From: Acidobacteriota bacterium
GTDB lineage: Bacteria; Acidobacteriota; Terriglobia; Acidiferrales; UBA7541
DNA length: 64,000 bases
Direction: 5' to 3'
Assembly: GCA_003223245.1 (NCBI GenBank)
Contig: QHYI01000108.1
Coordinates: forward strand, 1 to 64,000
Each line of letters begins with the position of its first letter. The stretch's first letter is position 1. This document shows, one piece after another, positions 19,703 through 59,994 of this stretch. The notes under the pieces are model-generated. The model saw only the letters and a list, made by a program, of their open reading frames with translations. It made no database searches and was not told the DNA's origin. The position numbers were made by a program, and so were the translations under genes.

Positions 19703-20133
19703 CTTCGCAATTTCATCCCGCCCGCATACTATCTCACCAAAACTTCCGACGGGCAGCTGAGTTTGCTTATAATTGATGGCCGTGTTTGTAGGGAACGACC
19801 TTTCACCGACCAGATATTTTTACATGACGACTGTATTGTTGCCGCGCAACCGTGGTACAAGCGTTCCCTCCAGGGACCAAGTGAAAACAGTTATGGAGCG
19901 TCGCGGGAATTTCTTTGGTGCACCGGGGCTGTGCATTTCCACGGACGGATCGTAACTCGGCGTTGGGGTTGCATCTGGATTCCCAGCGCATTGCCTGAGT
20001 ATGACACCATCAAGGATCTGGCATTAAGCTGGAGAGTTGCCTCGCCTAGCAGCTAGCTGCTAGTTAGGCCCCGCATCTTCGAACGTTGGTGATACCATAC
20101 AGCCTTTCAGATTCATTCTCTGGAGGAGAGAAC
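19703..20133. other. Intergenic region, 431 bases, promoter region
   Basis: This region separates a leftward oxidase gene from a rightward sortilin-like gene. A perfect TATAAT lies at 19768-19773 with a weak -35 (TTCCGA). A TTTGTAGGG word occurs near 19785, as in the hairpin family seen elsewhere, but no hairpin follows. A perfect 18-base palindrome lies at 20046-20063. A 60-codon frame from 19773 has no ribosome binding site and is not called. Confidence 0.45.
20046..20063. promoter_or_regulatory. Perfect 18-base palindrome upstream of sortilin-like gene
   Basis: CTAGCAGCTAGCTGCTAG is fully self-complementary and contains CTAG three times. It lies 70 bases upstream of the GTG start. It could be a dimeric regulator's operator or a hairpin in the leader. 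No known operator is recognised. Confidence 0.45.
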
Positions 20134-25054: not shown

Positions 25055-26626
25055 TCATTCATCACCCCGGGATGCCGCGCGGGCGCGCCGCTCGCGTTTG
25101 CGGAGTCGTTGCACGAAGCGCACGGGAGTGCCGATGAAATCGAATTTGGCGCGAAGCTGGTTTTCCAGAAAGCGCTCATAGCTGAAGTGCAGCGGCATTT
25201 TCTGATTCGTGAACAGGAGAAACGTCGGCGGAGCCGTTTTTGCCTGCGTTAGGTAGTAGATGCGCACGGGGCGCGACTTCGGCGTACTGCCGCGCTGGAG
25301 ATCGACGTCTTGCTTGAGCCAGTCGTTCAACGCTGGCGTGGGGATACGTCGGCGGCGCGCATCCGAGCATTGGTTGATGAGCGGAAACAGTTTTTCGGCG
25401 CGTTCGCCAGTTTTTGCGGAAAGAAAGACGATGGGCGCGTAGCTCAGAAATTTCAGTTTCGCGCGAATCATTTTTTCATAGTCGAGCATCAGCTTGCCCG
25501 GATCAACCGTTGCTGCGTTCTTGCCTAGAGGACTTCTTGAGGAATTTCCGCCCTTTCCAAAGGAAATGCTGGGGCGCTCCGTGCCTTTTGAGAAATTGGA
25601 GTCGCGACGCGCGGCCGCTTCGCGCGCGGCGGCCAGCGCGAGATCCCACTTGTTGACCACGAGAATCACCGAGCGGCCGGATTCTTCCGCATAGCCGGCA
25701 ATCGTGGCATCGCCTTGCGTGACGCCTTGCTCTCCATCGATGACCAACAGCGCCACGTCGCAGCGTTCGAGCCCGCGGCGGGCCATCACCACGCTGAGTT
25801 TTTCCGCAACTAGCGTGGTTCTGCCTTTGCGACGAATTCCAGCAGTGTCGACAAAGCGATAGTCGCGGCCTGCTCGCGTGATTTCGGTGTCCACGTTGTC
25901 CATGGTCGTTCCGGGAATCGGTGACACGATGGAGCGCTCTTCGCCAACCAGGCAGTTCAACAGCGTGGATTTGCCAACGTTAGGACGGCCAATGATAGCC
26001 ACCTCGATAGGCGCCGTCTCTATCGGCAGCTCGACGAGCGGAAGCTCCGCTCCAACAACCGGTGCCTGTGCCTCTTTCCGTTGTAGGGGCGCAGCATGCT
26101 GCGCCCCTGGCACCTCCTGCTGCTCAGCAAAAACATGCGCGAGGGCGTGGTCGAGAAGATCGTCGACGCCGGTGCCATGTTCCGCGGTAATCGGAAACAC
26201 AGGAACGCCGAGCGAATGAAATGGCGCGGCATTCGCTTCCTGCGAAGGCGCATCCACTTTATTGACAGCCAGCACAAAAGGTTTGCCGGTGCCGCGCAAA
26301 AGCCGCGCCAGTTCTTCGTCGAGCGGCGTGAGACCCGCTTGGCTGTCCACAACAAGAACCAGCAGCGCCGCTTTTTTGATGGCCACCTGCGCCTGACGGA
26401 AAATTTCCTGCGGGATGAGCCCTTTCTCGTCGGGAAGGATGCCGCCGGTGTCCACGACTTCCAGCGCCTTGCCGCGCCATTCCGCTTTGCCATAGATGCG
26501 GTCGCGCGTGATGCCCGGCTCATTGGTGACGATGGAGCGCCGCGTGCCGGTCAAGCGATTGAACAGCGTGGACTTGCCCACGTTCGGGCGTCCGACAATC
26601 ACCAGAGATGGCAGCCCCGCAATCAT
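25055..26626 (-). CDS. der: Ribosome-assembly GTPase Der (EngA) with two extra segments
   Basis: This is a 523-residue protein, longer than the usual 440-490. Two tandem GTPase domains are intact: G1 motifs GRPNVGKST at 12-20 and 213-221, DTGG near 59 and DTAG near 260, NKVD near 122 and NKWD near 325. A C-terminal KH-like domain ends the protein. Der acts in 50S subunit maturation. Two stretches look inserted. Residues about 168-196, in the linker, are partly encoded by a 22-base perfect palindrome. Residues about 332-378, after NKWD, include RDSNFSKGTERPSISFGKGG and are absent from typical Der. The ATG at 26626 is chosen because upstream residues in the longer frame lack the conserved start. 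Confidence 0.93.
   Translation of the reverse strand: MIAGLPSLVIVGRPNVGKSTLFNRLTGTRRSIVTNEPGITRDRIYGKAEWRGKALEVVDTGGILPDEKGLIPQEIFRQAQVAIKKAALLVLVVDSQAGLTPLDEELARLLRGTGKPFVLAVNKVDAPSQEANAAPFHSLGVPVFPITAEHGTGVDDLLDHALAHVFAEQQEVPGAQHAAPLQRKEAQAPVVGAELPLVELPIETAPIEVAIIGRPNVGKSTLLNCLVGEERSIVSPIPGTTMDNVDTEITRAGRDYRFVDTAGIRRKGRTTLVAEKLSVVMARRGLERCDVALLVIDGEQGVTQGDATIAGYAEESGRSVILVVNKWDLALAAAREAAARRDSNFSKGTERPSISFGKGGNSSRSPLGKNAATVDPGKLMLDYEKMIRAKLKFLSYAPIVFLSAKTGERAEKLFPLINQCSDARRRRIPTPALNDWLKQDVDLQRGSTPKSRPVRIYYLTQAKTAPPTFLLFTNQKMPLHFSYERFLENQLRAKFDFIGTPVRFVQRLRKRERRARAASRGDE
26086..26107. repeat. 22-base perfect palindrome inside der
   Basis: Starting GGGGCGCAGC and ending GCTGCGCCCC, centred on ATGC, this palindrome is preceded by TTGTA and codes for part of the variable linker of Der. 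Its inner 18 bases recur exactly at 59903-59920 outside any gene, also preceded by TTTGTAGGGGCG. Confidence 0.75.
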
Positions 26627-26692: not shown

Positions 26693-26722
26693 GGAGCCCG
26701 GCTGAAGCCCGGCCGCTACAAA
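26693..26722. repeat. GCCGGGCTTCAGCC-type hairpin repeat
   Basis: On the minus strand the sequence is TTTTGTAGCGGCCGGGCTTC then AGCCGGGCTC, a short hairpin with one mismatch preceded by TTGTAG. It lies between the hydantoinase stop and the der start. Confidence 0.5.
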
Positions 26723-33536: not shown

Positions 33537-33637
33537 GCCGGGTTAAAGCCCGGCCTCCAAAAAATCCACTGAGCGGCATTGTTAAGTGCGGCCGCTCAGT
33601 TACGTTCAGAACAAACAGGACAGACCAAAGTCTGTCC
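33537..33637. repeat. Two hairpin repeats between coxA and coxC
   Basis: GCCGGG/CCCGGC around TTAAAG at 33537-33554 and GGACAGAC/GTCTGTCC around CAAA at 33618-33637 are both perfect stems. The second is followed by TAC, as in other members of the GTAG/CTAC hairpin group. They may stabilise or attenuate the transcript between oxidase genes. Confidence 0.6.
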
Positions 33638-33639
33638 TA

Positions 33640-35313
<1,674 letters not shown>

Positions 35314-59799: not shown

Positions 59800-59886
59800 T
59801 CTGTTCTCTTACCGTCTATTCAGCTAAATTTTTTCGATTGTTTCCTGCACCGTCCTCGATGCTAACACACCGCTATCGTCCAGTCT

Positions 59887-59920
59887 TTGTAGGGGCGGTA
59901 GAGGCGCAGCATGCTGCGCC
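59887..59920. repeat. Palindromic repeat sharing its core with the der insertion
   Basis: TTTGTAGGGGCGGTAGAGGC then a perfect 18-base palindrome at 59903-59920 whose sequence equals the inner 18 bases of the palindrome at 26086-26107 in der. It lies between the M28 gene and tdh. Confidence 0.75.
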
Positions 59921-59994
59921 CAGCGTGCCACCGGCCTCTCTTGCGTCCCGGCTTTGGCCTTTCTTCCCAACCGCGATTTTTGAAGGCCTTTCCT

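Follow-up and report, generated by a model that had tools for sequence, protein, structure and literature searches.

How does a long perfect palindrome come to be read in frame within der, an essential GTPase gene, and did it arrive there as a mobile element? We addressed this question for an acidobacterial der gene carried on a 64,000-nucleotide stretch of contig QHYI01000108.1, hereafter the window (features in Table 1). The first-pass annotation had described a perfect palindrome of 22 bases at 26086-26107; the palindrome is real and two bases longer than described, covering 24 bases (AGGGGCGCAGCATGCTGCGCCCCT), and it is the longest loop-free palindrome within the window. Its GTAG head is oriented antisense to der (head and palindrome together: GTAGGGGCGCAGCATGCTGCGCCCC), and as RNA the element is predicted to form a hairpin of -22.3 kcal/mol (z -3.24). 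A palindrome in a GC-rich gene could be a product of chance, and those of 14-18 bases are indeed common by chance in the window, but 60 first-order Markov simulations of the window contained none of 24 bases or more, and length 22 was expected only 0.033 times per window. Together with exact repeats that include the head and zero matches to reversed controls, this refutes a chance origin.

Table 1 Features of the window around and beyond the der palindrome.
Feature	Position	Strand	Basis
der (EngA), host gene, 523 aa	25055..26626	-	open frame and translation; Pfam MMR_HSR1 twice, KH_dom-like
REP element: GTAG head 26083-26086 and perfect palindrome 26085-26108	26083..26108	+	sequence, repeat count, hairpin
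Probable older REP remnant in sense orientation relative to der, coding for VVGAELP(L), about 25 bases from the new REP	26036..26059	-	Der linker alignment and codons
GTAG hairpin GTAGGACAGACTTTGGTCTGTCC, resembling REPs beside the RAYT at L075 (G022)	33618-33640	-	sequence
REP type GTAGTGGCCGGTCTTCAGACCGGC, as flanking the RAYTs of L081 and L087	59776-59799	+	sequence
Second copy, 1 mismatch to the 24-mer, with extra detached head 59886-59897	59898..59921	+	sequence

The inner 18 bases had been said to recur exactly at 59903-59920, and they do. The head ascribed to this second copy, TTTGTAGGGGCG, is present but does not abut the palindrome; the head that abuts it is a second one, GTAGAGGCG, starting at 59898. 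When the whole genome (G000, a 6.31 Mb draft of 237 contigs, 95.8% complete) was searched, the 20-base core was found at 18 sites with up to 2 mismatches, 6 of them exact (reversed pattern, 0), and the 24-mer with its head at 20 distinct sites on many contigs with up to 3 mismatches, again with no match to the reversed-pattern controls. The GTAG-bearing 24-mer is exact at 5 of these 20 sites. The der palindrome is a dispersed multicopy element of a small family, not a sequence confined to its host gene. The short head TGTAGGGGCGCAGC taken alone is weak evidence, with 52 + 45 matches at up to 2 mismatches against 33 + 41 for the controls, and only its 13 exact matches are telling. The motif CT[CT]GGC lies within 14 bases 3' of 6 of the 20 copies, compared with 1.1% of random window positions, and it may be a fixed 3' tail or a target preference. 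Elsewhere in the window, an 18-base perfect palindrome (CTAGCAGCTAGCTGCTAG) lies at 20046-20063, a length of which about 0.4 are expected per window.

The family extends well beyond this genome. The 24-mer was found in 33 of 36 genomes of the genus, with 0 control matches in every genome, and the exact 24-mer occurs in at least 120 stretches of named GTDB genomes, the 80 listed among them including records titled planctomycete, Gemmatimonadetes, Chloroflexi, Bacteroidetes, Myxococcota, Serratia, Desulfuromonas and Acidobacteria. Among the matches listed, Pfam-supported genes of other phyla that carry it in frame include mfd (L158), a protein kinase gene (L186) and an SMC gene (L216), all chosen from 20 of 52 long ORFs that were mostly in the GAQHAAP phase and hence uninformative on phase; it lies between domains in mfd and inside the kinase domain in the protein kinase.

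GTAG-tagged REPs are thought to be mobilised by RAYT transposases. According to the available text of Di Nocera 2013 (PMC3733652), such REPs have a GTAG end on a short hairpin and occur in many copies. The der element is like them in its GTAG at one end, with the tag outside or at the foot of the stem, in a 6-13 bp stem, in its dispersal and in the in-frame position of some copies within genes; with a perfect palindrome of 24 bases it also agrees with the short stem-loop (20-40 bp) of this class. Among 120 fetched stretches with the exact 24-mer (at least 120 exist), a RAYT profile built here gave one match, in a Desulfuromonas MAG (L184). One exact copy of the palindrome is found there 46 bases outside the RAYT gene, on its start side, and another is read in frame inside the gene as VGAQHAAPL, sharing VGAQHAAP with the Der peptide. 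A search of the genus with this protein returned seven full-length-like RAYT loci in six genomes, and in all seven an in-frame REP occupies the same position between the HUH and Y motifs. The peptides encoded there are VGAQHAAP (G005), VGAQHCCA (G012), VGARYIVP (G013 and both loci of G027), VGAGLAPP (G009) and an antisense RHAVP type (G010). Six of the seven loci have a REP of matching type close by, and none was found near the RAYT of L256 (G012). The RAYT of L254 (G005) contains exactly the same palindrome in frame, with a flanking copy on one side only, and may be dead because of an in-frame TGA near its N-terminus. As for the motifs, NH(V/M)H and WQ are present, and the tyrosine motif reads YI..NP, not strictly the YIxNNP of the published set (NH[IFV]H, WQ, YIxNNP).

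Because the same palindrome stands in frame inside matching RAYT genes, as published for subclass 2.4, the der element is best filed as a GTAG-tagged REP, most similar to the REP of RAYT (TnpA-REP) subclass 2.4. In-frame REPs inside RAYT genes, double-foot REPs and scatter across phyla are all described in the available text of Quentin 2018 (PMC6006769), so we make no claim of novelty for REPs within RAYT genes. Our elements share with that subclass the position between the HuH and Y motifs, the scattered phyla and, at L184, the double foot (GTAG...CTAC), whereas they differ in that most copies in G000 are single-footed and that the palindrome also occupies housekeeping genes.

Palindromic elements of Rickettsia are likewise palindromes inserted in frame in protein genes, and a comparable mobile palindrome had been proposed for der. 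The likeness holds for a mobile-type insertion in a coding gene, and in-frame palindromes within protein genes are described for Rickettsia in PMC3733652 too; the family attribution does not hold. RPE-4 and RPE-6 of Rickettsia are assigned in the available text of that paper to CGTC REPs with no associated transposase, and we rejected an element of this kind because the tag here is GTAG, not CGTC.

Der has two GTPase domains and a KH-like domain by Pfam, and the REP lies in frame between the two G domains, where der reads through it as EVPGAQHAAPLQRKE to encode GAQHAAPL at about residues 174-181. In an AlphaFold2 model from a 14-sequence alignment, which is modest to weak overall (mean pLDDT 67.5, pTM 0.48), the span that holds the insert (residues 168-202) has pLDDT below 50. 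We compared Der linkers from 31 of the 36 genus genomes (none was recovered for G001, G013, G016, G020 and G028). The linker has 56 residues in G000, 16 more than the 40 of the sister species G030, with which it groups at support 99, and 29 in many others; the antisense REP is found at this place in G000 only, 1 of the 31. On this comparison the REP is shown to have entered the linker after the split from the sister species, which makes it a recent insertion. We infer the mobility of the element from its presence and absence, and the proposal that an inserted palindrome had created part of the Der linker is borne out by a sequence that is repeated in the genome and unshared by relatives. Two other segments of the region were noted. 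The Der G4-G5 loop (25505-25625, minus strand) exceeds that of most relatives by 12-13 residues; considered as a second mobile insert, it was rejected as a repeat, since it is single copy in the genome and similarly long in G030. A REP-like hairpin, GTAGCGGCCGGGCTTCAGCCGGGCTCC, lies at 26693-26719 (minus strand), just upstream of the der start codon.

The linker probably has an older layer as well. The segment at 26036-26059 looks like an old, decayed REP, and at this older position the same REP type in sense orientation is found in G014, G022 and G008 and a GLAPP type in G015, G017 and G029, so that der of G000 is not a lone case of a REP in this linker. On the trees, short-linker and REP-bearing species are intermixed, and for this reason gain, loss and recombination are not fully separable at the older position. 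One may ask whether homologous recombination between der alleles of different species instead brought in the REP-bearing linker. This intermixing among close relatives would agree with such exchange, and so would the motif F/Y-P...VVGA that long linkers share before the REP, which is expected from recombination or from an old insertion held in common; but support is low at several nodes of the der tree (as it is at several backbone nodes of the species tree, 25-63), and the new antisense copy has no known donor because none of the other Der linkers among the 31 carries it. We consider recombination distinctly unlikely as the source of the REP-bearing linker.

The extra sequence in G000 der amounts to 48 bases, compared with about 26-34 for the element itself, and therefore the event involved more than the insertion of a REP alone. 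An inserted length greater than the element would fit a palindrome made by template switching or another single-stranded DNA copying error that used a REP as template, with no transposase involved. Such an origin would also agree with the search for a RAYT in G000, which found none by the Pfam Y1 model, the L184 protein or the RAYT profile in a draft of 237 contigs that is 95.8% complete. A REP need not share its genome with a cognate RAYT, however, because RAYTs can be lost, as stated in the available text of Quentin 2018 (PMC6006769). Against a copying error stands the abundance in the genus of REPs with cognate RAYTs: Y1_Tnp is found by Pfam in 29 of the 36 genomes, G000 not among them, and many of the fetched RAYT loci have GTAG or GTGG REPs alongside, each with its own sequence. 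We regard the copying error as unlikely, and prefer insertion of a RAYT-mobilised REP, although only one of the 120 fetched stretches contained a RAYT ORF and the G005 RAYT has an in-frame TGA and a single flanking copy.

Pfam was run on 10 of the 14 ORFs of at least 200 aa that span copies in G000, and der, prmC, purL and anmK are Pfam-supported genes with the element in frame, that is, at least 4 of the 20 sites. All four read it in the GAQHAAP phase, an agreement for which we claim no significance because 20 of 52 long ORFs were scanned and these were mostly chosen in that phase. We analysed prmC and purL in 30 of the 36 genus genomes each, with at most 30 loci taken per gene, fragments left out and purL of L355 masked in the loop. 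In prmC, 11 of the 30 orthologues carry a REP (three types, at most 2 mismatches), 2 more look decayed, and 8 have short loops without a REP. The second purL loop likewise has a REP in 11 of 30 (four types, at most 3 mismatches) and is empty in several others; the type GTAGTGGCCGGTCTTCAGACCGGC is in frame in purL of G013, G027 and G014. A different palindromic insert (CHPESPRSSRGEG and similar) occupies the same purL loop in G030 (L330), G024 (L332), G008 (L357) and G019 (L358). The orthologous der, prmC and purL loops thus hold differing REP types, or none, across the genus.

Close relatives differ within the same prmC loop. It is empty in G014 and holds the QHAAP type in its sister G022 (support 95), and G028 likewise lacks a REP there, next to G013 and G027 with RYIVP (support 100). 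The sister species G007 (L302) and G010 (L311) have the same RHAVP-type REP at about the same position in opposite orientation. With REP types assigned by hand, and with the non-REP palindromic inserts in purL (CHPES type) scored as no REP, parsimony required at least 4 changes for der, 7 for prmC and 10 for purL. After shuffling, the minimum was 7 for der and 9 for prmC, so that both show some phylogenetic signal, whereas purL shows none, its 10 changes being on a par with the shuffled values (mean 10.6, minimum 8).

This variation bears on a possible recruitment of the element for some role in der, as an mRNA hairpin, a gyrase site or a linker spacer. Its hairpin is stable and REPs recur in the der linkers of several species, as recruitment would have it, but the orthologues vary in REP type, orientation and position or have no REP, and older copies look decayed. 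Recruitment is accordingly a very improbable reading. The very likely explanation is that a dispersed REP, which also stands in frame in prmC, purL and anmK, entered der after the split from the sister species and is tolerated there as an in-frame linker insert. A RAYT would have moved the REP in trans, as single-stranded DNA, and its gene would since have been lost or would lie within a gap of the assembly. The insertion persists because the frame is kept, the peptide GAQHAAP is small and stop-free, and the linker is flexible. The insert most likely does nothing for Der and would be expected to decay, which seems to have happened already to the older segment next to it.

The type held by a loop may follow the REP that is active in its genome. 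At the same prmC codon and between similar flanks, G005 reads KLSS followed by VGAQHAAPLR, and G013 and G027 read KV(S/P)T followed by VGARYIVPLR. A subclass-2.4-like RAYT and a typed prmC REP occur together in five genomes, and in four of them (G005, G010, G013 and G027; not G009) the prmC type is that of the RAYT's own internal REP. Genome counts of RYIVP are high where prmC has RYIVP (42 in G027, 19 in G013), and G021 and G033, with QHAAP in prmC, have 0, yet G005 has 40 RYIVP matches and a QHAAP prmC. The prmC pattern suggests, short of proof, in-place replacement by locally active REPs. Tentatively, and with more doubt than confidence, we raise the possibility that flexible loops of essential genes in this genus are standing docking sites for REPs, in which the resident REP would be replaced in place by the locally active type and the peptide would switch among VGAQHAAP, VGARYIVP and VGARHAVP at the same codons.

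Events of this kind are already known, both as intragenic REPs (Di Nocera 2013) and as REPs in frame in RAYT genes (Quentin 2018). What is less familiar is that, within one genus, the same loops are repeatedly occupied and change REP type. The available text of PMC3733652 reports different REPs at about the same site in recB of two Xanthomonas species, in contrast to the several REP types in orthologous der, prmC and purL loops of one genus here; apart from this remark, a text search of the literature found, in the texts it reached, no paper on recurrent use of the same loop by REPs across a genus, and the available text of PMC3733652 yielded no mention of Der.

With this insertion, the essential GTPase gene der joins the genes that tolerate in-frame REPs. 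The finding also carries a warning, in that a peptide such as VGAQHAAP in a bacterial protein derives from a transposon and is not a conserved motif. Within one genus, the same der, prmC and purL loops can be compared with REPs, without REPs and with different types, and therefore the target choice of RAYTs and the in-place replacement of REPs become testable questions. The loops of this genus are a natural record of how REP palindromes are tolerated within genes.
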